From Cladocopium goreaui (taxonomy: Eukaryota > Sar > Dinophyceae > Suessiales > Symbiodiniaceae): DNA of 64,000 nt. Positions 27,829-54,084 of this stretch are shown piece by piece; the stretch's first letter is position 1; the number at the start of each line of letters is the position of its first letter. Under the pieces are notes generated by a model. That model saw only the letters and a list, made by a program, of their open reading frames with translations, was not told the origin of the DNA and made no database searches. The translations under genes were made by a program, and so were the position numbers. The stretch spans positions 1 to 64,000 of the forward strand of contig CAMXCT020002734.1 of NCBI GenBank assembly GCA_947184155.2, read 5' to 3'.

Positions 27829-27899
27829 GTGATCCGCGGGGCCGTGGAAGAACTGAAGAAGAAGTTGCAGGACAGGGATGGTGCTTCGCCACTGGTTCA

Positions 27900-30237: not shown

Positions 30238-30239
30238 AC

Positions 30240-31310: not shown

Positions 31311-31320
31311 CAGGCATGCA

Positions 31321-31914
31321 CTTTTTGCATTAGGATGGTATGACACAATTGTTGGACAGCCTCTTGTACCACTACGACCAGATGAAGAGGAAGTTGCACT
31401 ACTTCAACGTAAAGTAGGAGTACCGCCTCTACCTGAAAGACCTTGGTTTATCAATGGAGCTGATGAATTTCAGATTGACGCCAATGTTCCTGAAGATCAT
31501 GCAGAAGAAGATGTGGGAGATATCACAAGAGACTACGTCAATCGACTTGACCAAGGAGGACCTGGTGGTATCAATCCTCGTCCGGGCCTGGATGAACAAC
31601 CCGAACGCATTCAAAATCTGGTTGATCAACTTGAAGAACATGGTGGACTTGAAATGGAACAAGAAGGACCAGTTTTGTATGTGAATACATGGTTCCTTAG
31701 CCGTCCAAACCAGCGGCACTGCACTGAATACAGAACAGTGCGTTTGGCAGGCAACTTCAGTCATTGGCACGATCAATTTCTGAGGACGTGGAACGATCTA
31801 CTTGAAGAAGGACAGCCTGTGGACTTCTACATTGTATATCCGCAGCCACCAACCACCAGGATGCAGCCGATGTGTCTCCCACATGTAATTCTGCTACAGA
31901 GAACCATGGAATAG
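31321..31914 (+). pseudogene. Mobile-element polyprotein segment 2
   Basis: Reads LFALGWYDTIVGQPLVPLRP and then an acidic linker. LVDQLEEHGGLEMEQEGPVL follows, then YVNTWFLSRPNQRHCTEYRT, a Trp-rich stretch (NFSHWHDQFLRTWNDLLEEG) and VDFYIVYPQPP with a final HVILLQ. This looks like one folded domain joined by linkers. It is in the frame of the gag-like ORF (30237), one base off segment 1. It ends at TAG 31912, but similar protein continues from 31930, so this is probably a broken polyprotein. Confidence 0.5.
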
Positions 31915-31917
31915 GAG

Positions 31918-32280
31918 AGTCGACCGAGAGCTTACCATGACATTGACGAAGCACTACACATGTTTCTAGTGGACTACCTCGCTGAGCACGCAGAGACGCA
32001 CCTGGAGGGCGCTGATTTTGGAAGTGCGGTACGCGTATGGCTGCTGGATCATGCAATTTCATGGACACGAACGCGAAGCACTCTCATGTTCTTCCGCGAT
32101 ACGCTTTCGGAGACCGATGCGCAGATGTTTCATCCCGGCATGCACAAGATCCAGATGGAGATTGACCAGCTGCTGGGCCTCAGAACCTGGAGCTTTTTGA
32201 GCATGGGCGAGGAGAAGAAAGAGGCCAATCGGGACATCGCTGGCTGTCATCAAGAATGCCATTGGTGGAAGAGCTGGTAG
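31918..32280 (+). pseudogene. Mobile-element polyprotein segment 3
   Basis: Same frame as segment 2 after one stop. Reads DIDEALHMFLVDYLAEHAET, then FGSAVRVWLLDHAISWTRTR and FFRDTLSETDAQMFHPGMHK. Near 32200 the better frame moves by one base (RPIGTSLAVIKNAIGG) and leads into the methyltransferase-like segment. Confidence 0.45.
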
Positions 32281-33244
32281 CAGCGACAGTCGCAGGATCC
32301 CCAAACCTGTGGGTCGGCAACGCATTGTGCTACACGCATTTGCCGGTCGACGCAGATTGGGCGACTTACAATATTATCTGGAGAGGGATTTATCCAGCAA
32401 GGCATCCTATGATTTGGTGACTGTGTCTCTTGACATCGTCATTAACCAGCACTGGGGAGATGCCACAAGGGCTGATACACGTCGTCTCTGGCTCTATTAA
32501 GCCATTAGAGATCGTTACGTGATCGGTTTTGTCGCTGGACCGCCATGTGAAACATGGTCGAGGGCGCGAGGAGTTCCACATGGCCGAGCTCCTCCTGCAG
32601 ATGGTGATGGTGATGCGGCGCCTGGACTTCCAGTACATGGCAGAGGACTCCCTAGAATCCTTCGTACGCTTTCTGAGTTATGGGGCCTTATGTCACTTGG
32701 CATCCGTGAACTCTGTCAGATCCTGACAGGGAACAGTCTTTTGATATTCGCCCTGGAGGCGATTGTAGAAATCGCACTCGCGGGCTCAGTTGGCTTAGTA
32801 GAACATCCGGCGGAGCCGGATGACCTGGTAGATGCCTCATCCATCTGGAGACTTCCAGTAATGGACATCATTTTGCATCTACCATGTGTGGAAAAGATTC
32901 GCTTCGCACAAGGTCTTCTTGGCGCCAAGACAGCTAAGCCAACGGAACTCCTTTGCGTGAACCTGCCATCTATGATGCAACATCTCCACGCCAATCGCGT
33001 TCGTAAGGAACTGCCGAGAGGCCAATCTGTGGGCAAGGATGGTCAAGGGCACTGGCGTACGTCCTCCTTAAAGGAGTACGCTCCAGCATTGTGCAAAGCG
33101 ATTTCTGAAGCACTCAGGGCAGCTTTTGACCCACAAGAGGTTGCTGCCGAACATGTCTGTGTCCCTCAGCATCTTCTGGACATTTGTCATTCAATGCAAG
33201 TTCAGACATTTGGATCGAACTTTGGACCCGACTATGCTAGGTGA
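32240..33244 (+). pseudogene. Methyltransferase-like segment (C5-MTase-type motifs) of the mobile element
   Basis: One frame, interrupted by a single TAA at 32498-32500. The order of landmarks matches an AdoMet-dependent C5-cytosine methyltransferase. LHAFAGRRRLGD (32330-32365) is at the motif I position. VSLDI (from 32423) sits where an acidic residue usually ends strand 2. FVAGPPCETWSRARG (from 32528) fits motif IV with its catalytic Pro-Cys. LVEHP (32795-32809) takes the place of motif VI ENV. GAKTAKPTELL (from 32921) follows. EHP for ENV and the absence of a clear QxRxR motif mean either a divergent subfamily or a look-alike fold. About 300 codons in total, with no target-recognition domain recognised. 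Retrotransposon-borne cytosine methyltransferases are known in dinoflagellates; assigning this one is inference. The stop and upstream frameshifts suggest it is inactive. Confidence 0.5.
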
Positions 33245-34664: not shown

Positions 34665-34727
34665 GAAGACCTGCGAGAGCAACTGCGAAAGATGCCACTT
34701 GGGGCCCCCAACCACGAAAATGGCGAG
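34665..34727 (+). CDS. EDLR-family exon C1 (63 nt)
   Basis: First member of the EDLR exon family. After gatatccag it reads EDLREQLRKMPLGAPNHENG plus Glu and ends at GGCGAG-GTTCCG, 63 nt, phase 0 at both ends. A second possible donor, GTAGCC at 34743, gives 78 nt. More diverged than the array copies, which suggests an older duplicate. Confidence 0.55.
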
Positions 34728-35464
34728 GTTCCGGGAGGGGAGGTAGCCATGGGTTTTCCCAGGTAGGCAGAATTGGGGCAATGCTTTGCCATTGGCCCAT
34801 CCATTTTGGGGGTATCTAGCCTATCTAGCCAGCAAAAATGCTACACATTTCTCCGGAGATGAAGAGTGATTGAACAATGATAGCTGATTATGCTCAATAT
34901 ACCTGGGTGGTGGTATCATATTTTTCAGTCATATTTAGAGTGATTCTTGTGTTGTTGGGATGGGTTGAAGGTTGTAGTGCCGGTCCATCAGAGGTCCCTA
35001 CTTTAAGTAGGGTCAATTTAAGTGACCCCCAAGTGATTTGTGCCATTAGGGCCCAAGTGAGCCTTTAAGATCCAAGTAGCCAAAATAGCCAAAATAGCCA
35101 AAATCCCATTGAAAAGGCATCAGCCCAAGATCCAAGTAGCCTTCAAGATCCAAGCATCCCCATTTCAGGCAGCCCAAGTAGCCAACTTATGTTTGGCTGA
35201 TTGGTTCTCTCCGATTTGAGGGGGCCTGTATGTAAAAACCCTACAAGGTGGTGCCTTGCCAGTTATTAAGTTGGTTTATAAAACCCGTTAACTATTGATA
35301 TATCATGATATATCTATATCTATGCTATCCCATATCTACCAGAGTGAATTAACTATAGATATGAAAACTATATAGATATATCTACCATTGGGCCATGGGT
35401 TTAGATGTTTACCTTAGGGTATCTGCCCCATGGATCTCCCACAAACGCCGGACGTTTTCCACAG

Positions 35465-35529
35465 GAAGATCTTCGGGAGCAGCTGCGGAAGATGCAAGAG
35501 ATGGAGGAGCAGCGGCTGCGATGTCTGCG
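35465..35529 (+). CDS. EDLR-family exon C2
   Basis: After ttttccacag it reads EDLREQLRKMQEMEEQRLRC and continues in frame to GYPAW at a TIR-1 left end. Donors could be GTGTCT at 35530 (65 nt), or GTAAAC inside the TIR-1 end at 35587. It retains a fuller coiled-coil pattern than the array exons. Confidence 0.5.
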
Positions 35530-35575
35530 GTGTCTCGATTTTACGGGAGAAAATTCGCGCAGCAAAAAGTGCGGA

Positions 35576-35686
35576 TACCCGGCCTGGTAAACTAACAAAA
35601 AGCTATTGAAAATGGCCATTTATAGCGAATTTTCCCATAAAAAATGGGTGATTTTCCATAGTTATGTGGCTGTTTACCAGAGGGTA
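35576..35686 (-). mobile_element. TIR-1 element directly after exon C2
   Basis: The left end is slightly altered (tacccggcctggtaaac). Full body and perfect right end. The open frame of exon C2 runs into it. Confidence 0.8.
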
Positions 35687-35914
35687 TCATGGGATACAGT
35701 ATCCATAGATATTTGAGATATTTTGGAATCCTTTGGATGGGTTGAACTATTTCCCAACTATATGGGTAATTATATAAGCCCAATGGGAACCTAGTTTCTT
35801 CATGTACCTTGTAATTACACACAGCCGGGTCTAGGGCCAATGGCATGCTTACATCAAAGGTGTTATGGGCAGCAAAAGTAAACTAAATGTGTTTTTTTCT
35901 TTCCAGAGTATCCG

Positions 35915-36125
35915 TGATTGTTGTGTTGGTGTTGGTGTTGGTGTTGGTGTTGTTTTTGGTGTTGTTGTTGTTGTTGCTGTTGCTGTTGGTGTTGTTGTTG
36001 TTGTGGTGGTCGTGGTCGTCCTCGTCGTCGTCCTCGCAGTAGTAGTAGTAGTAGTAATAGTAGTAGTAGTAGTAGTACTAGTACTAGTACTAGTACTAGT
36101 ACTAGTACTAGTACTAGTACAACAT
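35915..36125 (+). repeat. gtt / gtc / tag / actagt trinucleotide-hexanucleotide field
   Basis: ttggtgttggtg, then cgtcgtcgtcc, tagtagtagt and actagtactagt runs. Non-coding. Confidence 0.9.
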
Positions 36126-36290
36126 TATTATTACTATTATTTTCATTATTATTTTGTATGTATATATAATAGTTTTTCCACGCACATCATCCCTCATTGA
36201 GAATGGAGGTCGCCCTTCTGGCTTGACCCAAGTTGTTGGAGACCAGTGCGAAGTCCAGGTCACTTAAGGGTATGTTTGAACATTTGGTTA

Positions 36291-36397
36291 TACCATCTGG
36301 TTATGACTAACATAGCCATGGAAAATCACCATTTTTAATAGGTAAACCATCTATAAATGGGCCATTTTCCCATGGCTATGTTAAATAACCAGAGGGT
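36291..36397 (+). mobile_element. TIR-1 element
   Basis: taccatctggttatgac left end and ataaccagagggta right end. Confidence 0.8.
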
Positions 36398-36416
36398 ACT
36401 TCCCAAGTGGAGCTTT

Positions 36417-36503
36417 CCTAAAATAGGGGATCCCCAAGTCACCATAGGTTTCATTACTAAAATGGTCTAATTTTGGATGATTTGGGGGTGCCCCCATTTC
36501 AGG
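36417..36503 (+). mobile_element. TIR-3 element
   Basis: Ends cctaaaataggggatcccc and gggggtgcccccatttcagg. The best-preserved TIR-3 copy. Confidence 0.7.
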
Positions 36504-36784
36504 AAACCTCCAAATGGTTTGTAATTGAAAATCCCAAAATCAAATGGATGATTTGGGGATACCCCCATGACTTAGGAAACATCCAAATGGCTGTTGAATG
36601 AGAACATGATAAACTATCCAGCGGAAAAATGGACCCATTTTCAGAGACGCCGATTCACTTTCAGGCCTCAAAAAAAAGGACCCCTTGAGCCTTGAGCCAT
36701 CAACAATAGCCCTTATTGATGGGTTCACATGGGAGCCGATCGCAAACGCAAGTCTAAGAATTGTGAAAGGGCATGTGTCTTTCA

Positions 36785-36840
36785 GCATCCGCGATTGTAA
36801 AGCTCTGCGTCGCGATTGATCGGCGATTGGTCTGCAATTG
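36785..36840 (+). repeat. GCGATTGG motif cluster
   Basis: tccgcgattgtaaag, cgcgattgatcggcgattgg and variants. Confidence 0.55.
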
Positions 36841-37044
36841 AGACAACCATTAGTTGTATAAGAATCGAGTCTGTAAGAGGAGAAATCAATAGTATATTAT
36901 TTTAATGGCATGGCTTCATTTCAGCCTTATACTGTATTCGGGTCGGCCTAGACACTGTGTTCAATAGTGATAGCCAATAGCAAAGAAGAATCAGAACAAC
37001 AAGTTCAAAGTCTAACAACCCAGATCAATTCAATTTTCCAAAAA

Positions 37045-37262
37045 TGTCGATGAAATCGGCGATTGGTTCGCGGTTGATCCGCGATTGTTAAACCCGCCTG
37101 AGTAGGGCCTGGCTCACGCCATGCCTCTAAATACTGTGATATGTAGCAATGTTTTGACTTTGACGATTCTCTGCACAAACTCGTGTCGCATACGACAAAG
37201 GCCGCGATTGACACCGTTGAAAAATCGCGGAAGAGTTTCGCGGTTTTCTTCGGCGATTGTAG
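37045..37262 (+). repeat. GCGATTGG motif cluster
   Basis: cggcgattggttcgcggttg, ccgcgattg (twice) and cggcgattg over about 200 bp. Confidence 0.55.
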
Positions 37263-37429
37263 CTGCCCCAGATAGCTATTGATGGGGGATTCAACCGAAA
37301 ATTCACTGGTGGTATTTCCAATAGTTTCTTTTTTCCAGCCAAAGAAACGCGGGATTCTGGTGGTTTTTCATGTGGTAACTCATGATGAGTTGATGTAGTA
37401 AAGTGACATCAAGTGACTAATATACATCA

Positions 37430-37531
37430 TTAATATCCATAGGATCCATGTATGGTATATATGCTAACATGACTGGGGTATATTGATGGTAAATGTTACC
37501 ATATATAGCATACATGGATCCTATGGGATAT
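37430..37531. repeat. Inverted repeat, arms about 36 bp
   Basis: tatccataggatccatgtat faces atacatggatcctatgggat. The inner arm parts ggtatatatgc and ggtaccat-type phrases keep pairing with a few changes. Confidence 0.75.
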
Positions 37532-37862
37532 AGGCTGTAAATGGCTGTAGAGTTCACTTTTTTTCAGGTCGTCCAAGGTCTTGATGACAAAAGGGTGTTG
37601 TACTGCCTGCAGCACCTGCATCATTTTTATGTTGGATACAGGAAGACCTTCAATGATGGTCACTGCTTGTTTCTAGATTGAGGTTTATTTCAAATACCAG
37701 CTTTTTCGGGGTGAAGAAATTAAGTGGACCTCCAAACAAGAAGATGACCTGATTGGACAGCATGATGATCATGAGGTGTGACAGCATGTTTAAGCAGTGA
37801 TGGAACCTGAAGGGAAATCGAACTTGAACCAGAAAGATCTACCAGTCCCTCTTAAAGCGCAG

Positions 37863-37919
37863 GAAGACCTGCGTGCCCAGCTTCGGAAGATGGAAGCCGG
37901 CGCTTCCGATCATGAAACC
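37863..37919 (+). CDS. EDLR exon A1
   Basis: EDLRAQLRKMEAGASDHET. This A copy is closest to the B type in its first half. Acceptor aaagcgcag, GT at 37920, optional end +6. Confidence 0.6.
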
Positions 37920-38005
37920 GTGGCGGTTTCTTGGCTATGCTGAGATGAATAGCTTTTCCATAGGTCTTTCTGGATGAGCCGTTTTCATTTGAGAAGAAGC
38001 TTCCT

Positions 38006-38123
38006 ATGGCTAGAGAGATTAGTGTCAGAGCGGAAATTCTAAGGAGGTTCAGAAGAGGTCACATCACATTAGTACAGTCCTATCCCAACAGATCTCAACC
38101 TTCGAGTGATGTTGTGCCTACAG
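38006..38123 (+). other. Conserved A-to-B spacer with ATG frame
   Basis: Each unit has an ATG here (MAREISVRAEILR...) opening a frame of 80-138 codons that crosses exon B in another frame. Conservation equals that of the surrounding spacer, so it is probably not coding. Confidence 0.4.
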
Positions 38124-38180
38124 GAAGACCTTCGGGCACAATTGCGGAAGATGGAAGCTGGCGCTTCCGACAAAGACAAG
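38124..38180 (+). CDS. EDLR exon B1
   Basis: EDLRAQLRKMEAGASDKDK. Acceptor tgcctacag, GT (GTCGAG) at 38181. In-phase GC at +6. Confidence 0.6.
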
Positions 38181-38681
38181 GTCGAGGCACCAAATGGCAT
38201 TATGGACATGTGCAGCATTTTCTATTGCACAGACAAGTGCGAGAAGAGGAAACGCACCACAGCAATATTTGTGCTGTGCGTTTCCCGGATTCGTATAGAA
38301 TTATCAAGATGTACTCACATTTTCCATCCTTTTCCTTCAGTGCATGACCTTTGGTGCAAAGATGTTAAGGGTGCTACTCTTCCTTGGGTGGACTTTAATG
38401 AATTTTGCCAGGCATGATAAGGCATGATATCATTACAAAGATGTCTGTGCTTGTTGGGAATCCATGCGTTTGTCAACTTTGCATCGGCTGGCGATATCAT
38501 TAAACAGTATCAAAACTTACCTCATCAGTCAACATGGCAGGGCCAGCACGTCTTGGTAATCAAAAATGACAGCGGAAGGGCCCCGTTTTCAAGAGGCGAT
38601 TATATCATATTATATCAGTCATCATCGACCATCCACCAATGTAGATTCCATGGCATTTCCACAAACATGTCAGATTGCCAG

Positions 38682-38719
38682 AGTTAGAGGACGACCTAAG
38701 AGAGTCCCTAGGAGCATAA
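38682..38719 (+). CDS. Third exon-like segment D (relic?)
   Basis: Between gattgccag and the perfect donor GTAAGT. It reads ELEDDLRESLGA then TAA just before the donor. Only 22 bp separate its donor from exon A2. In most other units a small deletion changes the frame; the copy at 46889 still reads EDDLREYL. It looks like a diverged member of the EDLR family. Confidence 0.35.
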
Positions 38720-38741
38720 GTAAGTGCAATTTTGTACGCAG

Positions 38742-38798
38742 GAAGACCTACGTGTCCAGCTTCAGAAGATGGAAGCCGGCGCTTCCGACCATGAAACC
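38742..38798 (+). CDS. EDLR exon A2
   Basis: EDLRVQLQKMEAGASDHET, acceptor tgtacgcag, GT at 38799. Confidence 0.6.
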
Positions 38799-39002
38799 GT
38801 GGCGGTTTCTTGGCTATGCTGAGACGAATTGCTTTTCCATAGGTCTTTCTGGATGAGCCGTTTTCATTTGAGAAGAAGCTTCCTATGGCTAGAGAGATTA
38901 GTGTCAGAGCGGAAATTCTAAGGAGGTTCAGACTCGGTCACATCACATTAGCACAGTCCTATCCCAACAGATCTCAACCTTCGAGTGATGTTGTGCCTAC
39001 AG

Positions 39003-39059
39003 GAAGACCTTCGGGCACAATTGCGGAAGATGGAAGCTGGCGCTTCCGACAAAGACAAG
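39003..39059 (+). CDS. EDLR exon B2
   Basis: Identical peptide to B1. GT at 39060. Confidence 0.6.
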
Positions 39060-39622
39060 GTCGAGGCACCAAATGGCATTATGGAAATGTGCAGCATTTT
39101 CTATTGCACAGACAAGTGCAAGAGTAAAGCACCATAGCAACATTTGTGCTGTGCGTTTCCCGGATTCGTATGGAATTATCAAGATGTATTCACATCTTCC
39201 ATCACTTTCCTTCAGTGCATGACCTTTGGTGCAAAGATGTTAAGGGTGCTACTCTTCCTTGGGTGGACTTTTATGAATGTTGCCAGGCATGAGAAGGCAT
39301 GATATCATTACAAAGATCTCTGTGCTTGTTGGGAATCCATGCGTTTGTCAACTTTGCATCGGCTGGCGATATCATCAAACAGTATCAAGACTTACCTCCT
39401 TCAGTCAATATGGCAGGGCCAGCACGTTTTGGTAATCAAAAATGACAGCGGAAGGCGGAAGGGCCCCGTTTTCAAGAGGTAATTATATCATATTATATCA
39501 GTCATCATCGACCATCCACCAATGTAGATTCCATGGCATTTCCACAGGCATGTCAGATTACCAGAGTCAGAGGACGACCTAAGAGATCCTAAGAGTATAA
39601 GTAAGTGCAATTTTGTATGCAG

Positions 39623-39679
39623 GAAGACCTACGTGTCCAGCTTCAGAAGATGGAAGCCGGCGCTTCCGACCATGAAACC
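39623..39679 (+). CDS. EDLR exon A3
   Basis: Standard A peptide. It is followed after only 136 bp by another A, with no B between. Confidence 0.6.
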
Positions 39680-39815
39680 GTGGCGGTTTCTTGGCTATGC
39701 TGAGACGAATTGCTTTTCCATAGGTCTTTCTGGATGAGCCGTTTTCATTTGAGAAGAAGCTTCATATGGCTAGAGAGATTAGTGTCAGAGCGGAAATTCT
39801 AAGGAGGTTCAGCAG

Positions 39816-39872
39816 GAAGACCTACGTGTCCAGCTTCAGAAGATGGAAGCCGGCGCTTCCGACCATGAAACC
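39816..39872 (+). CDS. EDLR exon A4 (extra copy)
   Basis: Second A in the same unit. Its acceptor is created by a junction in which the spacer gaggttcag joins directly to caggaagacc. Confidence 0.6.
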
Positions 39873-40076
39873 GTGGCGGTTTCTTGGCTATGCTGAGACG
39901 AATTGCTTTTCCATAGGTCTTTCTGGATGAGCCGTTTTCATTTGAGAAGAAGCTTCCTATGGCTAGAGAGATTAGTGTCAGAGCGGAAATTCTAAGGAGG
40001 TTCAGACTCGGTCACATCACATTAGTACAGTCCTATCCCAACAGATCTCAACCTTCGAGTGATGTTGTGCCTACAG

Positions 40077-40133
40077 GAAGACCTTCGGGCACAATTGCGG
40101 AAGATGGAAGCTGGCGCTTCCGACAAAGACAAG
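40077..40133 (+). CDS. EDLR exon B3
   Basis: Standard B peptide. GT at 40134. The following spacer has several small indels (40320-40510). Confidence 0.6.
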
Positions 40134-40681
40134 GTCGAGGCACCAAATGGCATTATGGAAATGTGCAGCATTTTCTATTGCACAGACAAGTGCAAGAGTG
40201 AAGCACACATAGCAACATTGTGCTGTGCTTTCCCCGGATTCGTATGGAATTATCAAGATGTATTCACCTCTTTCCACAACTTTCCTTCAGTGCATGACCT
40301 TTGGTGCAAAGATGTTAAGGTGCACTCTTCCTTGGTTGGCTTTTATGAATTTTTGCCGGCATGAGAAGGCATTATATCATTAACAAAGATCTCGTGCTTG
40401 TTGGGAATCCGGCGTTTGTCAACTTGCATCGCTGGCGATATCTCAAACAGTTCAAGACTTACCTCCTTCAGCAATATGGTCAGGGCCGCACGTTTTTGGT
40501 AATCAAAAAAAAATGACAGCGGAGGCCGAATGGCCCCGTTTTCAGAGGTAATTATATCAGTCATCATCGACCATCCACCAATGTAGATTCCATGGCATTT
40601 CCACAAACATGTCAGATTGCCAGAGTCAGAGGACGACCTAAGAGATCCTAAGAGCATAAGTAAGTGCAATTTTGTACGCAG

Positions 40682-40738
40682 GAAGACCTACGTGTCCAGC
40701 TTCAGAAGATGGAAGCCGGCGCTTCCGACCATGAAACC
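40682..40738 (+). CDS. EDLR exon A5
   Basis: Standard A peptide. From here most A-to-B spacers are 201 bp (loss of agg before ttcag). Confidence 0.6.
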
Positions 40739-40939
40739 GTGGCGGTTTCTTGGCTATGCTGAGACGAATTGCTTTTCCATAGGTCTTTCTGGATGAGCCG
40801 TTTTCATTTGAGAAGAAGCTTCATATGGCTAGAGAGATTAGTGTCAGAGCGGAAATTCTAAGGTTCAGACTCGGTCACATCACATTAGTACAGTCCTATC
40901 CCAACAGATCTCAACCTTCGAGTGATGTTGTGCCTACAG

Positions 40940-40996
40940 GAAGACCTTCGGGCACAATTGCGGAAGATGGAAGCTGGCGCTTCCGACAAAGACAAG
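40940..40996 (+). CDS. EDLR exon B4
   Basis: Standard B peptide, GT at 40997. Confidence 0.6.
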
Positions 40997-41560
40997 GTCG
41001 AGGCACCAAATGGCATTATGGAAATGTGCAGCATTTTCTATTGCACAGACAAGTGCGAAGAGGAAAGCACCATAGCAATATTTGTGCTGTGCGTTTCCTG
41101 GATTCGTATGGAATTATCAAGATGTACTCACATTTTCCATCATTTTCCTTCAGTGCATGACCTTTGGTGCAAAGATGTTAAGGGTGCTACTCTTCCTTGG
41201 GTGGACTTTTATGAATGTTGCCAGGCATGAGAAGGCATGATATCATTACAAAGATCTCTGTGCTTGTTGGGAATCCATGCGTTTGTCAACTTTGCATCGG
41301 CTGGCGATATCATCAAACAGTATCAAGACTTACCTCCTTCAGTCAATATGGCAGGGCCAGCACGTTTTGGTAATCAAAAATGACAGCGGAAGGCGGAAGG
41401 GCCCCGTTTTCAAGAGGTAATTATATCATATTATATCAGTCATCATCGACCATCCACCAATGTAGATTCCATGGCATTTCCACAGGCATGTCAGATTACC
41501 AGAGTCAGAGGACGACCTAAGAGATCCTAAGAGTATAAGTAAGTGCAATTTTGTATGCAG

Positions 41561-41617
41561 GAAGACCTACGTGTCCAGCTTCAGAAGATGGAAGCCGGCG
41601 CTTCCGACCATGAAACC
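41561..41617 (+). CDS. EDLR exon A6
   Basis: Standard A peptide, acceptor tgtatgcag. Confidence 0.6.
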
Positions 41618-41821
41618 GTGGCGGTTTCTTGGCTATGCTGAGACGAATTGCTTTTCCATAGGTCTTTCTGGATGAGCCGTTTTCATTTGAGAAGAAGCTT
41701 CCTATGGCTAGAGAGATTAGTGTCAGAGCGGAAATTCTAAGGAGGTTCAGACTCGGTCACATCACATTAGTACAGTCCTATCCCAACAGCTCTCAACCTT
41801 CGAGTGATGTTGTGCCTACAG

Positions 41822-41878
41822 GAAGACCTTCGGGCACAATTGCGGAAGATGGAAGCTGGCGCTTCCGACAAAGACAAG
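41822..41878 (+). CDS. EDLR exon B5
   Basis: Standard B peptide, GT at 41879. Confidence 0.6.
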
Positions 41879-42445
41879 GTCGAGGCACCAAATGGCAGTA
41901 TGGAAATGTGCAGCATTTCATTTTCTATTGCACAGACAAGTGCGAGAAGAGGAAACGCACCACAGCAATATTTGTGCTGTGCGTTTCCTGGATTCGTATG
42001 GAATTATCAAGATGTATTCACATCTTCCATCACTTTCCTTCAGTGCATGACCTTTGGTGCAAAGATGTTAAGGGTGCTACTCTTCCTTGGGTGAACTTTT
42101 ATGAATGTTGCCAGGCATGATAAGGCATGATATCATTGCAAAGATGTCTGTGCTTGTTGGGAATCCATGCGTTTGTCAACTTTGCATCGGCTGGCGATAT
42201 CATCAAACAGTATCAAGACTTACCTCCTTCAGTCAATATGGCCAGCACGTTTTGGTAATCAAAAATGACAGCGGAAGGCGGAAGGGCCCCGTTTTCAAGA
42301 GGTAATTATATCATATTATATCAGTCATCATCGACCATCCACCAATGTAGATTCCACGGCATTTCCACAAACATGTCAGATTACCAGAGTCAGAGGACGA
42401 CCTAAGAGATCCTAAGAGCATAAGTAAGTGCAATTTTGTACGCAG

Positions 42446-42502
42446 GAAGACCTACGTGTCCAGCTTCAGAAGATGGAAGCCGGCGCTTCCGACCATGAAA
42501 CC
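42446..42502 (+). CDS. EDLR exon A7
   Basis: Standard A peptide, GT at 42503. Confidence 0.6.
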
Positions 42503-42703
42503 GTGGCGGTTTCTTGGCTATGCTGAGACGAATTGCTTTTCCATAGGTCTTTCTGGATGAGCCGTTTTCATTTGAGAAGAAGCTTCCTATGGCTAGAGAG
42601 ATTAGTGTCAGAGCGGAAATTCTAAGGTTCAGACTCGGTCACATCACATTAGTACAGTCCTATCCCAACAGATCTCAACCTTCGAGTGATGTTGTGCCTA
42701 CAG

Positions 42704-42760
42704 GAAGACCTTCGGGCACAATTGCGGAAGATGGAAGCTGGCGCTTCCGACAAAGACAAG
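42704..42760 (+). CDS. EDLR exon B6
   Basis: Standard B peptide. The next A is missing. Confidence 0.6.
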
Positions 42761-43267
42761 GTCGAGGCACCAAATGGCACTATGGAAATGTGCAGCATTT
42801 TCTATTGCACAGACAAGTGCGAGAAGAGGAAACGCACCACAGCAATATTTGTGCTGTGCGTTTCCTGGATTCGTATAGAATTATCAAGATGTACTCACAT
42901 TTTTCTGCAGTGCATGACCTTTGGTGCAAAGATGTTAAGGGTGCTACTCTTCCTTGGGTGGACTTTTATGAATGTTGCCAGGCATGATAAGGCATGATAT
43001 CATTACAAAGATGTCTGTGCTTGTTGGGAATCCATGCGTTTGTCAACTTTGCATCGGCTGGCGATATCATTCAACAGTATCAAAACTTACCTCATCAGTC
43101 AACATGGCAGGGCCAGCACGTTTTGGTAATCAAAAATGACAGCGGAAGGGCCCCGTTTTCAAGAGGCGATTATATCATATTATATCAGTCATCATCGACC
43201 ATCCACCAATGTAGATTCCACGGCATTTCCACAAACATGTCAGCCAGAGTCAGAGGACGACCTAAGA

Positions 43268-43312
43268 GATCCTAAGAGTCAACAAGAAGACCGTGGCCGT
43301 GTTTCTTGGCTA
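43268..43312 (+). pseudogene. Deleted exon A remnant
   Basis: cctaagagtcaacaagaaga runs straight into ccgtggccgtgtttcttgg. The acceptor and most of the A exon are gone, so B6 and B7 follow one another. Confidence 0.75.
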
Positions 43313-43495
43313 TGCTGAGACGAATTGCTTTTCCATAGGTCTTTCTGGATGAGCCGTTTTCATTTGAGAAGAAGCTTCCTATGGCTAGAGAGATTAGTGT
43401 CAGAGCGGAAATTCTAAGGTTCAGACTCGGTCACATCACATTAGTACAGTCCTATCCCAACAGATCTCAACCTTCGAGTGATGTTGTGCCTACAG

Positions 43496-43552
43496 GAAGA
43501 CCTTCGGGCACAATTGCGGAAGATGGAAGCTGGCGCTTCCGACAAAGACAAG
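43496..43552 (+). CDS. EDLR exon B7
   Basis: Standard B peptide, GT at 43553. Confidence 0.6.
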
Positions 43553-44116
43553 GTCGAGGCACCAAATGGCAGTATGGAAATGTGCAGCATTTCATTTTCT
43601 ATTGCACAGACAAGTGCGAGAAGAGGAAACGCACCACAGCAATATTTGTGCTGTGCGTTTCCTGGATTCGTATGGAATTATCAAGATGTACTCACATTTT
43701 CCATCATTTTTCTTCAGTGCATGACCTTTGGTGCAAAGATGTTAAGGGTGCTACTCTTCCTTGGGTGAACTTTTATGAATTTTGTCAGGCATGATAAGGC
43801 ATGATATCATTACAAAGATGTCTGTGCTTGTTGGGAATCCATGCGTTTGTCAACTTTGCATCGGCTGGCGATATCATTCAACAGTATCAAAACTTACCTC
43901 ATCAGTCAACATGGCAGGGCCAGCACGTTTTGGTAATCAAAAATGACAGCGGAAGGGCCCCGTTTTCAAGAGGCGATTATATCATATTATATCAGTCATC
44001 ATCGACCATCCACCAATGTAGATTCCACGGCATTTCCACAAACATGTCAGATTGCCAGAGTCAGAGGACGACCTAAGAGATCCTAAGAGTATAAGTAAGT
44101 GCAATTTTGTATGCAG

Positions 44117-44173
44117 GAAGACCTACGTGTCCAGCTTCAGAAGATGGAAGCCGGCGCTTCCGACCATGAAACC
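44117..44173 (+). CDS. EDLR exon A9
   Basis: Standard A peptide, acceptor tgtatgcag. Confidence 0.6.
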
Positions 44174-44374
44174 GTGGCGGTTTCTTGGCTATGCTGAGAC
44201 GAATTGCTTTTCCATAGGTCTTTCTGGATGAGCCGTTTTCATTTGAGAAGAAGCTTCCTATGGCTAGAGAGATTAGTGTCGGAGCGGAAATTCTAAGGTT
44301 CAGACTCGGTCACATCACATTAGTACAATCCTATCCCAACAGATCTCAACCTTCGAGTGATGTTGTGCCTACAG

Positions 44375-44431
44375 GAAGACCTTCGGGCACAATTGCGGAA
44401 GATGGAAGCTGGCGCTTCCGACAAAGACAAG
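44375..44431 (+). CDS. EDLR exon B8
   Basis: Standard B peptide, GT at 44432. Confidence 0.6.
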
Positions 44432-44992
44432 GTCGAGGCACCAAATGGCATTATGGAAATGTGCAGCATTTTTTCTATTGCACAGACAAGTGCGAGAAGA
44501 GGAAACGCACCACAGCAATATTTGTGCTGTGCGTTTCCTGGATTCGTATGGAATTATCAAGATGTACTCACATTTTCCATCATTTTCCTTCAGTGCATGA
44601 CCTTTGGTGCAAAGATGTTAAGGGTGCTACTCTTCCTTGGGTGGACTTATATGAATGTTGCCAGGCATGATAAGGCATGATATCATTACAAAGATGTCTG
44701 TGCTTGTTGGGAATCCATGCGTTTGTCAACTTTGCATCGGCTGGCGATATCATCAACTGTATCAAGACTTACCTCCTTCAGTCAATATGGCAGGGCCAGC
44801 ACGTTTTGGTAATCAAAAATGACAGCGGAAGGGCCCCGTTTTCAAGAGGTGATTATATCATATTATATCAGTCATCATCGACCATCCACCAATGTAGATT
44901 CCACGGCATTTCCACAAACATGTCAGATTACCAGAGTCAGAGGACGACCTAAGAGATCCTAAGAGCATAAGTAAGTGCAATTTTGTACGCAG

Positions 44993-45049
44993 GAAGACCT
45001 ACGTGTCCAGCTTCAGAAGATGGAAGCCGGCGCTTCCGACCATGAAACC
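44993..45049 (+). CDS. EDLR exon A10
   Basis: Standard A peptide. Confidence 0.6.
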
Positions 45050-45250
45050 GTGGCGGTTTCTTGGCTATGCTGAGACGAATTGCTTTTCCATAGGTCTTTC
45101 TGGATGAGCCGTTTTCATTTGAGAAGAAGCTTCCTATGGCTAGAGAGATTAGTGTCGGAGCGGAAATTCTAAGGTTCAGACTCGGTCACATCACATTAGT
45201 ACAGTCCTATCCCAACAGATCTCAACCTTCGAGTGATGTTGTGCCTACAG

Positions 45251-45307
45251 GAAGACCTTCGGGCACAATTGCGGAAGATGGAAGCTGGCGCTTCCGAAAA
45301 AGACAAG
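45251..45307 (+). CDS. EDLR exon B9
   Basis: EDLRAQLRKMEAGASEKDK (Asp to Glu at position 16), GT at 45308. Confidence 0.6.
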
Positions 45308-45862
45308 GTCGAGGCACCAAATGGCACTATGGAAATGTGCAGCATTTTCTATTGCACAGACAAGTACAAGAGGATACAAGAGGAAAGCACCATAGGAACA
45401 TTTGTGCTGTGCGTTTCCTGGATTCGTATAGAATTATCAAGATGTACTCACATTTTTCTGCAGTACATTACGCTTGGTGCAAAGATGTTAACCGTGCTAC
45501 TCTTCCTTGGGTGGACTTTTATGAATGTTGCCAGGCATGATAAGGCATTATATCATTACAAAGATGTCTGTGCTTGTTGGGAATCCATGCGTTTGTCAAC
45601 TTTGCATCGGCTGGCGATATCATTCAACAGTATCAAAACTTACCTCATCAGTCAACATGGCAGGGCCAGCACGTTTTGGTAATCAAAAATGACAGCGGAA
45701 GGGCCCCGTTTTCAAGAGGCGATTATATCATATTATATCAGTCATCATCGACCATCCACCAATGTAGATTCCATGGCATTTCCACAAACATGTCAGATTA
45801 CCAGAGTCAGAGGACGACCTAAGAGATCCTAAGAGCATAAGTAAGTGCAATTTTGTACGCAG

Positions 45863-45919
45863 GAAGACCTACGTGTCCAGCTTCGGAAGATGGAAGCTGG
45901 CGCTTCCGACCATGAAACT
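45863..45919 (+). CDS. EDLR exon A11
   Basis: EDLRVQLRKMEAGASDHET. The downstream spacer changes completely after ttcttggct, which marks the edge of the homogenised array. Confidence 0.6.
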
Positions 45920-46274
45920 GTGGCGGTTTCTTGGCTTTCAAAGTTCTTAGCGCTGCTCAGGGGTCTCATCGTAAAAGTTTTTCAAAAGACTCAGTAGGAA
46001 AGATTCGATGTGAAGGGTTTTCCGATGTTGGACATGCTGTATATGAACCGCGCTGGTGCCCTAGGCCCTGGAGTGACTATTTATTAATATAATCCATATC
46101 AATTAATCATGTTTGTCCCCAGACTGACAAGCACCTTGCCTGTGGCTATGAAAAGGATTGAACAGGTATAACCGGTTGCTGTGTAAAATTTGGGGGAAGT
46201 TTTTGAAGGGCTCATGTTTGTAACCACACTTATCCCAAGATATCGCAACTTTTCAATGATTTCCTTTCCTGCAG

Positions 46275-46331
46275 GAAGACCTCCGGGCGCAATTGCGGAA
46301 GATGGAAGCTGGCGCTTCCGATAAAGACAGG
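46275..46331 (+). CDS. EDLR exon B10
   Basis: EDLRAQLRKMEAGASDKDR, acceptor tttcctgcag after a pyrimidine tract. The spacers are diverged from the array. Confidence 0.6.
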
Positions 46332-46950
46332 GTCGAGGCACCAAAGGGCATCATGAAAAATCTTCCATCAATCGTGAAAAACCTTGTGTTGCGCAGACAT
46401 GTCTGAGAAATACAAAAGGAACGGTGCTATTGTGAAGGCGTCCCATGATTTTTTTTCAAAATATTTGTTCACGTTTCTTCCCACAATGTGCTATACCCGG
46501 TGCAAAGATGTTGAAGAGTGCTCTTTTGCTTATTACCGGGCTTTTCCTTCCTTTTTCTTGAATGCTGATTTGGCAGGGAACTACTGTTACAACAGAACCA
46601 TTCCTGGATTGTTGAGAAATTTTTGAGATCTGGGGATGCTGAGAAGCCATGCGATGTGAACTTAGCTTCATCAATCCGGAAATGTCAACATGCAACAACA
46701 TTCAGTTCAATAATTGTGCATGACCTATTTTATTGAGAGAATTTGAGAGGACATGTAGCGTCTGCTTTTTGCTGATCTAAAACAGAAAACGGGAGAGCTC
46801 CAATTTCAAGAGGTAATTATATCAATCATCATCGACCATCCACCAATGTAGATTCCATGGCATTTCCACAAACATGTCAGATTGCCAGAGTCAGAGGACG
46901 ACCTAAGAGAGTACCTATAGGAGCATATGTAAGTGCAATTTTGTACGCAG

Positions 46951-47007
46951 GAAAACCTACGTGTCCAGCTTCAGAAGATGGAAGCTGGCGCTTCCGACCA
47001 TGAAACC
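46951..47007 (+). CDS. EDLR exon A12
   Basis: ENLRVQLQKMEAGASDHET (Asp to Asn at position 2), preceded by the same 22-bp GTAAGT...CAG spacer as the array A exons. Confidence 0.6.
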
Positions 47008-47202
47008 GTGGCGGTTTCTTGGCTTTCAAAGTGCTTGGGATTTTTTCAAGGGGCACTGCTCAGGGGTCTCACCGAAAAAGTTCTTCAAAAGACTCAGTAG
47101 GAAAGGTTCGGGGTGAAAGTTTTTTCGATGATGGACATACTGTAGATGAACCGCGCTGGTGCCCTAGACTGACTGTGAATTGATACCAGTTTGCCGCACA
47201 AG

Positions 47203-47232
47203 GCAGTGGCAGAAGTTGCAAAAATAGGACAC
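47203..47232 (+). CDS. Candidate short exon
   Basis: After ccgcacaag the + strand reads AVAEVAKIGH up to GTATAG, 30 nt, phase 0 at both ends. The next codon without splicing is Val, then a stop. Confidence 0.35.
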
Positions 47233-47313
47233 GTATAGGAGGAGAGGTGAGTTGTTGTAGTGCATGGATGGCAGAGCGAACCCTGATGGACCCAAAGGTG
47301 GTTGAGGCTCTGG

Positions 47314-48403
47314 CTCTCTCTGTCTCTCTCTCTCTCTGTCTGTCTGTCTGTCTGTCTATCTACCTGTCTATCTATCTATGTATCTATCTATCTCTTTGTC
47401 TGTCTATCTATCTGACCATCTGTCTACTATCTATCTGTCTATCTATCTGTCTATCTGGCTGTGTATCTGCTATCTGTCTATCTGTCTATCTGTCTATCTG
47501 TCTATCTGTCTATCTGTCTATCTGTCTATCTCCCCATCTGTCCATCTATCCATGTATCCATCTTTGCATCTTTCCATCTTTCCATCTTTCCATCTTTCCA
47601 TCCATCCATCCATCTATCGATCTTTCCATCTATCCATCTATCCATCTATCCTTCTATCCTTCTATCCTTCTATCCTTCTATCCTTCTATCCTTCTGTCCT
47701 TCTCTCCATCTGTCCATCTGTCCATCTATCCATCTATCCATCTATCTGTCTATCTGTCTACCTGTCTGTCCGTCTGTTCCTCTGTCCGTCTGTCCATCTC
47801 TCCATCTGTTCATCGGTCAATCTGTCCATTTGTCCATCTGTTCATCTGTCCATCTGTCCATCTATCCATCTATCCATCTATCCATCTATCCGTCTATCCG
47901 TCTATCCATCTATCCATCTATCCATCCATCCATTGATCGATCTATATATTTATCTATCTATCCATATCTACCTATCTACCTATCTACCTACCTACCTATC
48001 TATCTATCTATCTATCTAACCGAAGCTAATCTAATCTAATCTAATCTAATCTATGCTATGTATCTATCTATCTATCTATCTATCTAGTATGTATGTATGT
48101 ATGTATGTATGTAGGTACGTACGTACGTACGTACGTACGTACGTACGTACGTATCTATGTATCTATGTATCTATGTATCTATCTATCGATCGATCGATCT
48201 ATCTATCTATCTATCTATGGATCTGTCTGTCTATCTATCTATCTATCCATCTATCTATCTATCCATCCATCTATCTATCCATCTATCTATCTATCTATCT
48301 GTCTATCTGTCTATCAATCAACCAATCAATCAATCTATCAATCGGTCACTCGATCAATCAATCAACCAATCAATCTGTCTATCGATTGATCGATCGATCG
48401 ATC

Positions 48404-48434
<31 letters not shown>

Positions 48435-48745
48435 CTAAGCTAATTTAATCTTATCTAATCTAACCTTATCTTATCTACTCATCTACCTATCTACGTATCT
48501 AGCTAGCTAGCTATCCATTTATCTACCTATTTATCTATCTACCTATCTATCTATCAATCAATCAATCAGTCAATCTTTCTTACCTATCTAACTATCTACA
48601 TGTCTATCTATCTACCTGTCTATCTATCTAATCTTTCTAATCTATTTATCTAACCTATCTAACCGATCTAATCTATCTAACCTATCTAACCTATCTATCC
48701 AATCTATCTAACCTATCTATCGTCCTATCTATCGGAAGCAATTAT
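47314..48745. repeat. TCTA-type tetranucleotide array with drifting motif
   Basis: Long stop-free runs of tctg, tcta, tcca, tcct, then gtat, acgt (48115-48152), gatc, tcaa and taatc variants. All three + frames are open for up to 229 codons (Ser/Ile/Tyr/Leu repeats), as expected from a stop-free tetranucleotide. Confidence 0.97.
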
Positions 48746-48910
48746 GCAAGAGTTCCTTCAAAAGTGGAAGTTGACAGGGCCAAAACGTAGCAATTCTGCG
48801 AGACTTCCTCAAAAATGAAAGTTGACACCTCCAAAATCAAGAAATTCGGGCAGATTTCCTCCATATTTGAAGTTGGCACCATTGAAAACGAAGCAATTCA
48901 GCGAGACAAA
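48738..48910. repeat. Diverged 52-bp tandem repeat
   Basis: Three units beginning gcaattatgcaag, gcaattctgcgag and gaaattcgggcag, plus a partial gcaattcagcgag, at 52-bp spacing. Confidence 0.7.
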
Positions 48911-48989
48911 CGTCCCGCGCCTGCCATCGTTTTTGCAAGTGCTACGGCACCCTCACGTTTTGCTCACTTTTGGCAAGGTGCAAATCCAT

Positions 48990-49345
48990 TGCGCCTGCAA
49001 AACCACATCCTAATTTCAGAAAGTGGTCCGGGATCGTCAGGTTTAACACTTTTGACTTGTGAATGTGCTTCGCGCCAAAACGGGGTATACTTTCTCCACA
49101 TCTGAAATTTCAAAAGTGGTTTTTAGCATTTTGACTTCGACATGTGCTTGGCGCCACCAGAGCGTGCACTTTTTTGTCTGATCTCAACTTCCAAAAGCGC
49201 TCCGGAGCTGAGGTGTTCTGTACATGTTGACTCCAAAATGCACTTTGTGCCACAGCCGCGTGCAATTCTTGAACATGTCAACTTCCAAAAGTGCTCCGAG
49301 AATGGTGTGTTTTGTACCTTTCGAGTTGGAAATGTGCTTTCTGTC
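48990..49345. repeat. Diverged repeats of about 110 bp
   Basis: Recurrent phrases: acttccaaaagtgctccg, acttcgacatgtgctt and gaaatgtgctttctgtc. No convincing coding frame. Confidence 0.5.
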
Positions 49346-49377
49346 ATTTCGCGCACCTTGATCTTCTTCTACTGACT

Positions 49378-49417
49378 CTTTCTCTTCTCACTCTTCTCTT
49401 CTCTTCTCTTCTCTGAC
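49378..49417 (+). repeat. (tcttc)n microsatellite
   Basis: ctcttctcttctcttctc run. Confidence 0.85.
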
Positions 49418-49677
49418 TGGTCTCACCACTGTTGTGCTTCTGTCCATAAGTCGGAAGTTTGACTTCTATAAACTTCCTTCGACAATCAAAATCAAGTAAT
49501 CACAATTATTCATGTTTGTCCCCCAAACTGACACCTTGCCTGTGGCTATGAAAAAAATACTGCAAATTGCTGTGTGAAATTTAAAAGAAGTTTCAGAAAA
49601 AAACATGTTTGTAACAATTTTTGTAAATGAACTTGTCCCAAGACATCGCAACTTTTCAATGGTTTCTTTTCCTGTAG

Positions 49678-49734
49678 GAAGACCTTCGGGCGCAATTGCG
49701 GAAGATGGAAGCAGATGCTTCCGACAAAGACGAG
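49678..49734 (+). CDS. EDLR exon B11
   Basis: EDLRAQLRKMEADASDKDE, acceptor ttttcctgtag. Similarity to B copies continues to VEAPNGIM past the GT, with third-position changes, so the exon may be longer than 57 nt. Confidence 0.6.
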
Positions 49735-50052
49735 GTTGAGGCACCCAATGGCATCATGACATGTTTTCAATCATGAATCACGACCACGTGGCACAGACAA
49801 GTAAAGAAGGGTAAACATAGGAAAACGGATTCAGTTTGCGTGTCTTGTCTCATGCGTTTGCTTTAATACGATTTTTCCGTTTTTTTTTAGATGGTTTCAT
49901 TTTTCTCAAAACGGGACTTGTGGTGAATGGTGACTTGCCAAACATGATTTCAAGACAACGATTCCTGATTTACTTCAAAATCAGACATAAAATGGCAGGG
50001 CTGCTGAGAATGTCGATGCCTCGAATGGCATGGTGAACTGTTTTTTTGAGGT

Positions 50053-50250
50053 GGTGCTGCTGCTGCTGATGATGATGATGATGACGACGATGATGACGAT
50101 GGCGATGACGATGACAACAGTGGTGACGATGGTGATGGTGATGATGATGACGACGATGACGATGACGATGGTAATGGTTATGATGTTGATGATGACGAGA
50201 ATGACGATGGTGATGGTGACGATGATGATGATGATGATGATCATCGTCAC
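50053..50250 (+). repeat. gatgac repeat region
   Basis: Mostly GAY triplets on the + strand. One frame reads poly-Asp with Gly; the minus strand reads His-rich peptide. Both are products of the repeat. Confidence 0.85.
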
Positions 50251-50374
50251 GTGGATTGAGGAATAACCGACTTTCAGGCAAATCAATATCAATACAACAA
50301 CTATTTATCCGTATTTTTTTCCAGGAAAACCATCTGCCAAGAAAAAATGCGTTTTTCATTGCCTCGTTGTGAAG

Positions 50375-50431
50375 GAAGACCTACGGGCCCAGCTTCGGAA
50401 GATGGAAACCGGGGCTTCTGACCATGAAAAC
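50375..50431 (+). CDS. EDLR exon A13
   Basis: EDLRAQLRKMETGASDHEN. The GT at 57 nt is lost (aaac-cttgct); a GC at 60 nt (CTT-GCTATG) would still be in phase. Acceptor gtgaag is weaker than in the array. Confidence 0.45.
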
Positions 50432-50674
50432 CTTGCTATGCCTTGGCTTAGGGTCACCGACCAAGGGTCGGCTGAATCCCCATGACAAACAAGACTTAAG
50501 ACGTCAGCAAATTTTAGGATGGAAGGTTTGTAAAACAATCTCTTTTATGATTTGATGCGATTCGGATATGATTTGTTTTTGTATGTGTGGCCCAGTGGCC
50601 CGGTATTGCACTTATGGTTTGACTGGTTGTCGCATCCTACTTGGAATGCATGGGAATCCGCTGATTTTGTGGAG

Positions 50675-50731
50675 GAAGACCTTCGGGCGCAATTGCGGGA
50701 GATGGAAGCCGGTGCTTCTGAGAAAGACAAG
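50675..50731 (+). CDS. EDLR exon B12
   Basis: EDLRAQLREMEAGASEKDK, GT (GTTGAG) at 50732. Followed within 30 bp by a TIR-3 copy. Confidence 0.6.
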
Positions 50732-50760
50732 GTTGAGGCACCCAATGGCATCCTGGGTTT

Positions 50761-50848
50761 CTCAAAGTGGGGGTATCCAAAAATGGATGGTTTGTACATG
50801 AAAAATCGTCTGAAAATGGATGATTTTGGGATACCCCCAATTTCAGGA
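50761..50848 (+). mobile_element. TIR-3 element
   Basis: ctcaaagtgggggtatcc ... gggatacccccaatttcagg. Confidence 0.6.
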
Positions 50849-51221
50849 AACCTCCATATGATATGTCTTTCAAGCAGCAACCTCAGCATGTACCAACAAC
50901 ATGTCCAAGAAAGACAGCGAAGATTGCGTGACTCCAAGTTTTGGTGTCTGATATTTTTTTAAACTTGGGTTTGTCTGAAAGTAGGGTATCCCCAACTTTG
51001 ATGTTTAATCATCATTTTTCCCAATTTTTCGTCAAACGTGGCCATTTAGGAAGGTACAGCAGACTCCATTTTCAGACACATTCAAACCATACATATCATA
51101 GATTATTGGTTGGCTAAATCCCATGTAACCATCCATAAATTTCCCTATTTTGATGGGGAAACCCCATGACATATCCGATGAATTATCATGCTGGACCTGA
51201 CAGCTGTTCGAGAGTTGTCAG

Positions 51222-51278
51222 GACGGCCTACGAACCCAGCTGCGAAAGATGGAAGCCGGCGCTTCAGACCGCGAAAAC
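51222..51278 (+). CDS. EDLR exon A14
   Basis: DGLRTQLRKMEAGASDREN, acceptor gagttgtcag, GT at 51279, with a second in-phase GT (GTTTCT) at +6. Last recognisable member of the family in the window. Confidence 0.55.
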
Positions 51279-51607
51279 GTGGAGGTTTCTTGGCCTGAAA
51301 ACCGGCGCTTGTGGTTTATTATTCATCATATTTAATAGTTTAACTATATAAGGCTATATTGTTATATGTGTTATATTGTGCTTATATTGGGGTTCCTGTA
51401 AATTTTCTCTTAAACCAATCCATTGAACCGGAAACAACCATGGATTTCCGTATGTTTTTTTAAAGCTTACCCCGGGGTAGTAGCCAGGTCATGCCATTCC
51501 CAAAGACGGATTCCCACCTTGATATCAGCTGCTGGCTGGTGGTTTTAGGTACGATTTGTTTTTTTGTCATCGCTATTTCTGATGATTATTCCAGCATAAA
51601 ATGAGTA

Positions 51608-52299: not shown

Positions 52300-52403
52300 A
52301 CCGCCCCTGAGGTGCAGCTGCGACATGTGCAGACTCGGAACGCCGAGCTGGAAAACGAGCTGCAGGCGTCGATGGGAGGATTTGGCCGGACGTTTACCCT
52401 CTG
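52300..52403 (+). CDS. Candidate coiled-coil exon ending at a TIR-1 element
   Basis: After gatcttcgaag the + strand reads TAPEVQLRHVQTRNAELENE and LQASMGGFGRT. It is helical and charged, with leucine spacing. The frame runs into the TIR-1 left end (ctctg-GTAAAC), which supplies the first strong GT. Acceptor alternatives are ggtgcag (52317) and tgtgcag (52329). One of the best islands. Confidence 0.5.
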
Positions 52404-54036: not shown

Positions 54037-54084
54037 GAGTTCCAGCAAGTCCAGTTGAGGAAAGCGAAGCTTAAGGCGACGCAC
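54037..54084 (+). CDS. Candidate coiled-coil exon (48 nt)
   Basis: After gcccggcag the + strand reads EFQQVQLRKAKLKATH up to GTCATG, 16 codons, phase 0 at both ends. The frame is open on both sides (SAR upstream, VMNLHLRRKN downstream), so it may be longer. Basic and helical. Confidence 0.5.

Follow-up and report, generated by a model that had tools for sequence, protein, structure and literature searches.

The first 64,000 nucleotides of an 88,513-base contig of the dinoflagellate Cladocopium goreaui (CAMXCT020002734.1), here called the window, contain an array of 27 homologous small exons, all on the forward strand between 34,665 and 51,284, which probably belongs to the middle of one long forward-strand gene, extending at least from ~9.8 kb to 83.4 kb of the contig, and is probably spliced in order into a heptad-repeat stalk. 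The copies were located by a six-frame motif scan with a threshold of at least 7 of 15 positions, the last of them starting at 51,222, and the array is real, far beyond chance.

In the proposed mechanism, tandem phase-0 exons of 21 codons (24 in the copy named C2) would be joined one after another, and one mRNA of this species would include most or even all 27 of them. Unequal crossing-over between near-identical doublets of two exon types, A and B, would change the length of the stalk in steps of 42 residues, and exon skipping in steps of 21; since one exon amounts to three heptads, the addition or the skipping of an exon keeps both the frame and the coiled-coil register, and the stalk may work as a length-tunable spacer.

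Layout and borders of the repeat exons

The array is composed of C1, C2, thirteen A and twelve B copies, together with the relic of one deleted A. An initial annotation, made from the sequence alone, had described 26 homologous same-strand exons of alternating A and B types; the array and its types were recovered and the count was not, although the annotation's own list (2 + 13 + 12) is the one found here and sums to 27. The array opens with C1 (34,665–34,727; 63 nt, donor GT) and C2 (35,465–35,536; 72 nt, donor GA). The following copies, in which A exons carry a GT donor and B exons a GC donor unless otherwise indicated, are A1 (37,863–37,925), B1 (38,124–38,186), A2 (38,742–38,804), B2 (39,003–39,065), A3 (39,623–39,685), which is followed 130 nt on by another A copy, A4 (39,816–39,878), whose acceptor region is unlike that of the other A copies, B3 (40,077–40,139), A5 (40,682–40,744), B4 (40,940–41,002), A6 (41,561–41,623), B5 (41,822–41,884), A7 (42,446–42,508), B6 (42,704–42,766), B7 (43,496–43,558), A8 (44,117–44,179), B8 (44,375–44,437), A9 (44,993–45,055), B9 (45,251–45,313) and A10 (45,863–45,925). 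Diverged copies come next: B10 (46,275–46,337), A11 (46,951–47,013), B11 (49,678–49,740), A12 (50,375–50,437; without a recognisable donor at +63) and B12 (50,675–50,737). The last repeat exon is A13 (51,222–51,284; donor GT); A12 and A13 had been numbered A13 and A14 in the initial annotation.

The duplicating unit is the A-B doublet. Repeat finding in the window returned near-identical A-B units of ~880 bp each, and for a 300-nt stretch of the unit (repeat family D4) seven of the nine copies, the reference counted, are 83–100% identical to the reference. With 63-nt exons the introns of the core measure 195 or 198 nt from A to B and 542–561 nt from B to A, the exceptions being one A-A pair (130 nt) and one B-B pair (729 nt). 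The absence of a B between A3 and A4 and the A relic between B6 and B7, a short remnant placed by sequence comparison at ~43,286–43,300, are the leftovers expected of unequal crossing-over and deletion. The regularly spaced A-B doublet, the greater divergence of the outlying copies and the deletion of one A had all been recognised before; with 63-nt exons, the spacers given as 201/204 and ~560 bp become introns of the lengths above. A 1.4-kb field of tetranucleotide microsatellites (47,300–48,730) lies inside the intron between the copies at 46,951 and 49,678, and at 40,150–40,500 single-base indels are scattered through one unit when it is compared with the adjacent units, a pattern suggestive of uncorrected sequencing errors.

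The 3' border of the exon was set by P0002, a protein of 336 aa encoded by a 1,197-nt contig (source lgn, read as Logan, assembled public reads) that was returned by a homolog search with the translated exons. P0002 is collinear with the contig of the window over a span that begins at the last array copy and reaches 83,404, with exact blocks covering 324 of its 336 residues, and its frame is unbroken across at least 15 genomic introns, so that it must derive from spliced RNA (or a retrocopy); in particular, its reading frame continues from the last array copy into the exons at 52,312, 54,037, 54,927 and onward on the same contig. Its residues 1–12 define the 3' junction of the last copy, which ends at GTG GAG|GTTTCT, followed by CCCCTGAG|GTG CAG, that is, at +63 and in phase 0. 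All 27 copies start at AG|G and are in phase 0; the initial annotation had likewise found no phase change between copies. The exon is 63 nt long in every copy except C2 (72 nt), with no donor confirming the end of the copy at 50,375, and the 27 copies add up to 1,710 nt. Donors are present at these ends in 26 of the 27 copies (GT in 13, GC in 12, GA in one) and follow the exon type, GT being found in C1 and in 12 of the 13 A copies, GC in all 12 B copies and GA in C2; the A copy at 50,375 has AT at the donor position, +63.

Two other sets of exon ends were considered and rejected. An end at +57, as initially annotated, is contradicted by the junction script applied to P0002, which gave +63 as its single solution for the last copy; the GT reported exactly at +57 does occur in 24 of the 25 A and B copies and is missing in the A copy at 50,375, in C1 and in C2, and among the aligned copies similarity continues beyond this position. 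Ends marked by GC donors at +71 in A and +73 in B were considered since the conserved block extends past +63, and were rejected because their phases are incompatible and P0002 gives +63. Of the 19- or 21-residue repeat that had been foreseen, only the 21-residue form stands, in agreement with P0002, with the related protein P0001 and with the substitution pattern described below. Similarly, the CAG that had been said to precede every intact copy is found before 24 of the 27, the remaining three being preceded by TAG, AAG and GAG. The first 10–18 nt of the introns that follow A and B copies (GTTTCTTGGC and GCACCAAATGGCATTATG) are largely conserved, also in those copies where the rest of the intron has diverged.

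The use of GC donors is not peculiar to the array. The junction script, which admits only GT, GC and GA donors, AG acceptors and exact protein identity, was run on the near-allelic contig C1452 and resolved 13 of 15 junctions of P0002, with six GT, five GC and two GA donors; the other two involve a segment that differs by one residue, and by eye their donors are GC and GT, with AG acceptors. This mixture agrees with the 25–74% share of GC/GA donors reported for Symbiodiniaceae (PMC11453091). GC donors being common among the P0002 junctions, the GC at the twelve B copies is therefore an ordinary donor for this gene.

Tandem repeats in related proteins and a second locus

Repeats of 21 residues of the EDLRxQLRKM type occur in tandem in two related proteins, P0001 and P0007, and in this species the transcript-derived protein reaches no further into the array than the 3' end of its last copy. 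P0001 (source jgi), the transcript of a relative, has an uninterrupted frame of 536 aa on a 1,734-nt contig and contains exactly ten such repeats, of which the first is diverged and repeats 2–10 strictly alternate between two types; they are followed by VHLRHVQSRNNELESELQ-EFQQVRLR and then by the C-terminal domain that P0002 also has. In P0007, a Durusdinium trenchii model, there are seven repeats, of which one comprises 22 residues and the last has an uncertain end. As related proteins carry homologous repeats one after another, tandem splicing is the best supported arrangement, in preference to a cassette of the Dscam kind. The gene shares with these dinoflagellate coiled-coil/EF-hand-like proteins the C-terminal domain, the motifs VxLRHV..RN.EL and EFQ.VxLRK and the coding of 21-residue EDLRxQLRKM-like repeats, and with P0007 also the N-terminal QALLWERAVTQRLRSQLDMAEA; its C-terminal domain and the order of its exons, both of which match P0002, place it in the family of P0001, P0002 and P0007. 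The named relatives of the protein come from Durusdinium trenchii, Effrenium voratum and Symbiodinium sp. CCMP2592.

The number of repeats differs, with 27 exon copies here as opposed to ten repeats in P0001 and seven in P0007, and other members of the family expand other modules of the same stalk: four Effrenium voratum models (P0008, P0009, P0011, P0012) and the similar P0010 (jgi) have two to four copies of a 41-residue coiled-coil module, while a 32-residue module is found seven times in a Symbiodinium model and six times in a jgi sequence resembling it.

The 63-nt exon encodes 21 residues, exactly three heptads, and C2 encodes 24. In the joined peptide of the 25 A and B copies the hydrophobic period is strongest at 3.50 residues (scan 2.8–5.0), and in the repeats of P0007 it is 3.54; with this heptad periodicity, the repeats are predicted to encode a coiled-coil.

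A further group of copies was found at another locus, C1411, whose fetched part (128,001–154,362) holds C2, three A and three B copies. The C2 copy at this locus has 63 nt and the same GA donor, and one of the A copies carries a GC donor and the other two GT, a mixture expected if GC and GT are interchangeable. The locus looked like a second gene, but in its fetched part tblastn at E up to 5 matched neither terminal region of P0007 or of P0002; it is therefore treated as a probable partial duplicate. A tandem-repeat field beyond the array is common to the window (58,195–60,900) and to C1411 (153,129–154,362), and the intervening exons of the family were not found between the C1411 array and this shared field. 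In P0004 and P0006 (source ena) a B copy is read on into its intron, so that units of this array and of a C1411-like one seem to be present in further public assemblies.

Weighing the alternatives

The coding frame of the copies is constrained. The ratio of nonsynonymous to synonymous differences (pN/pS) was determined among 32 copies, 26 from the window, C2 being left out, and six from C1411, 16 of them distinct; in the coding frame the 16 A copies (8 distinct) give 0.32 and the 15 B copies (7 distinct) 0.20, in comparison to 0.69–1.65 in the two other frames. Pairs taken within the window are in agreement: for example, B 39,003 and B 50,675 differ with pS 0.37 and pN 0.04, and A 38,742 and A 50,375 with pS 0.34 and pN 0.10; selection on the peptide, which the initial annotation had suggested and proposed to check by dN/dS, is thus supported. 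In five regular core units the variable columns are 1 of 126 in exons and 44 of 728 in introns (Fisher p 0.009), a count that leaves out the unit at 39,816, with its scattered intron indels resembling sequencing errors, the first unit (37,863) and the irregular units; when the 39,816 unit and gap columns are included, the values become 1 of 126 and 100 of 775.

Several observations weigh against the splicing of the whole array into one stalk. A donor at +63 is missing from one A copy, and another A has been deleted; the A-to-B introns alone vary in 5 of 195 columns, an invariance close to that of the exons; the pairs behind the pN/pS values lack independence, and C1411, maybe a broken duplicate, supplied six of the 32 copies. 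In addition, the hydrophobic period of the P0001 repeats peaks at 4.2, with 3.5 lower, and P0001 belongs to a relative with its own doublet, which may have duplicated independently. Finally, a search with a 234-aa query of joined exons, of which the best 7,991 candidates were scored, returned only P0003 and P0005 and no transcript of this species across the array junctions; this absence says little, because near-identical 63-nt exons would presumably break short-read assembly.

Among the alternatives, the one that survives best is a cassette of variable skipping, in which the exons freely join and the skipping of phase-0 exons gives a ladder of stalk lengths and sequences. All copies are in phase 0 and all but C2 encode three heptads, so that any subset stays in frame, and the donor types differ between A (GT) and B (GC). 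In Amphidinium gibbosum exon skipping is reported as the most frequent kind of alternative splicing, at 77.2% (PMC7557087), and the two to four copies of the 41-residue module in the five Effrenium or Effrenium-like sequences could be isoforms, although they could equally be strains or separate genes. Strict alternation over the last nine repeats of P0001 argues against free joining, and this reading is rather unlikely. A further proposal, in which the stalk is a splice-tunable ruler, with graded lengths produced by skipping, different inclusion given by the GT (A) and GC (B) donors and length differences among strains produced by doublet recombination, is also rather unlikely.

It is also improbable that the array is mostly dead, with a few copies (such as C1, C2 and the last A) being spliced and the recent near-identical units carried as neutral intron baggage. 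The copy lacking a donor, the deleted copy, the microsatellite field at 47.3–48.7 kb and the failure of the joined-exon query to find a tandem transcript of this species among its best 7,991 candidates would fit such a state; however, frame and donor are kept in 24 of the 25 A and B copies, the core exons vary less than the core introns, and the diverged copies are constrained in the coding frame. A mutually exclusive cassette, with one A or B exon per mRNA in the style of insect Dscam, which the initial annotation had offered as an alternative, would suit an arrangement of similar exons of symmetric phase between other exons of one gene, but is very improbable, since relatives have ten (P0001) and seven (P0007) repeats in one protein and since any number of array exons stays in frame, so that the reading frame enforces no single choice. 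The mutually exclusive clusters of insect Dscam comprise many homologous tandem exons within one gene, whereas here all copies are in phase 0 and freely combinable, and relatives carry many repeats per protein. In-order splicing of the repeat exons into a heptad-repeat stalk is thus retained as the probable arrangement.

Tetrahymena is, like Cladocopium, an alveolate. In a study of its leucine-rich repeat (LRR) genes, tandem arrays of 90-bp exons in phase 2 are described in many genes, with 1–50 copies in most of them, purifying selection, young copies with introns of characteristic length and unequal crossing-over as the proposed origin (PMC6564038). These arrays share with the present one exons of one length (here all but C2) and a single intron phase, and are the closest published kind found; in contrast, the exons described here have 63 nt, phase 0 and three coiled-coil heptads in place of 90 bp, phase 2 and LRR, and alternate between types A and B, which differ in their donors. 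The initial statement that such an array would be unusual for a protist therefore holds in part only, equal-length exon arrays having been published for Tetrahymena LRR genes (PMC6564038). Among the titles listed in literature searches (12 of 2,140 in the general one), which mostly did not cover subscription papers, none concerns this gene or a dinoflagellate array of this kind. Schistosome micro-exon genes contain small symmetric exons in long runs, the skipping of which keeps the frame; here, in contrast, the exons are homologous copies of 63 nt that code for heptad repeats.

The array adds a clean case to those in which a repeat protein grows longer through tandem duplication of an exon; here the exon corresponds to a whole number of heptads and both frame and register are kept, with young and diverged copies side by side in one gene. 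As exon type tracks donor type, it also allows GT and GC donors to be compared within one dinoflagellate gene, while the repeats of other modules in the Effrenium and Symbiodinium members suggest that stalk length may change repeatedly.

Surrounding gene and other repeats

Downstream of the array, P0002 identifies five exons on the forward strand of the window: VQLRHVQTRNAELENELQ (52,312–52,365, donor GC), EFQQVQLRKAKLK (54,037–54,075, donor GC), DVDVAVQTDFAEPEKPEKGVRSARTKKKSVFFNT (54,927–55,028, donor GT, one residue differing), APGGSE(S) (57,241–57,260, donor GT) and SIPGAVEHAVSQTR (58,067–58,111, donor GT, one residue differing). Later exons of the gene lie outside the window, at 64,317–83,404 of the same contig. 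Upstream of the array, a family exon, LAKQALLWERAVTQRLRSQLDMAE (9,775–9,846, forward strand), was detected by tblastn with P0007, its borders being read tentatively from the sequence; at 9,796–9,849 all 18 aligned residues are identical to P0007, and P0010 matches with 77% identity over 26 residues. The N-terminal motif WERAVTQRLRSQLDMAEA of P0007 is thus present at 9.8 kb of the window. A possible coiled-coil exon, EAKVIRGAVEELKKKLQ (27,820–27,870, forward strand, tentative borders), matches residues 508–525 of P0007 weakly (67% identity over 18 residues, E 0.23), and for the 323 residues of P0007 that are more N-terminal, tblastn at the cut-off used detected no exons in the window.

The C-terminal domain of the family is putatively EF-hand-like. 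P0007 is named 'EF-hand domain-containing protein' in UniRef; no Pfam EF-hand reached the cut-off, EF-hand_6 in P0001 scoring 12.9 bits against 25 (E 0.099), and none appeared in P0002 and P0003 at E up to 0.1. The Pfam matches below the cut-off, namely SAP in P0001, DUF6752 in P0002 and the CENP-F leucine zipper and Med12-PQL in P0003, were taken as noise, and the one weak match of the family profile in a PDB sequence search, Dynein regulatory complex protein 10 (E 0.0016), was taken as coiled-coil background.

Three long forward-strand frames (655, 204 and 247 aa) at 29,343–33,244, in an intron of the gene, were judged retroelement-like; no Pfam family matched them. Short elements of ~110 nt with inverted ends are found in many places across the window (CCCTCTGGTAA at 13 sites and TTACCAGAGGG at 14), for example at 43/134, 3,517/3,610, 52,397/52,490 and 54,195/54,294, and may be introner-like or miniature inverted-repeat transposable elements (MITE). 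An interspersed repeat of ~550 nt occupies 36,730–37,278; a genome search with 36,000–38,000, which scored only 39 of its 4,539 candidates, listed 49 matches, and 41 of these fall within it.

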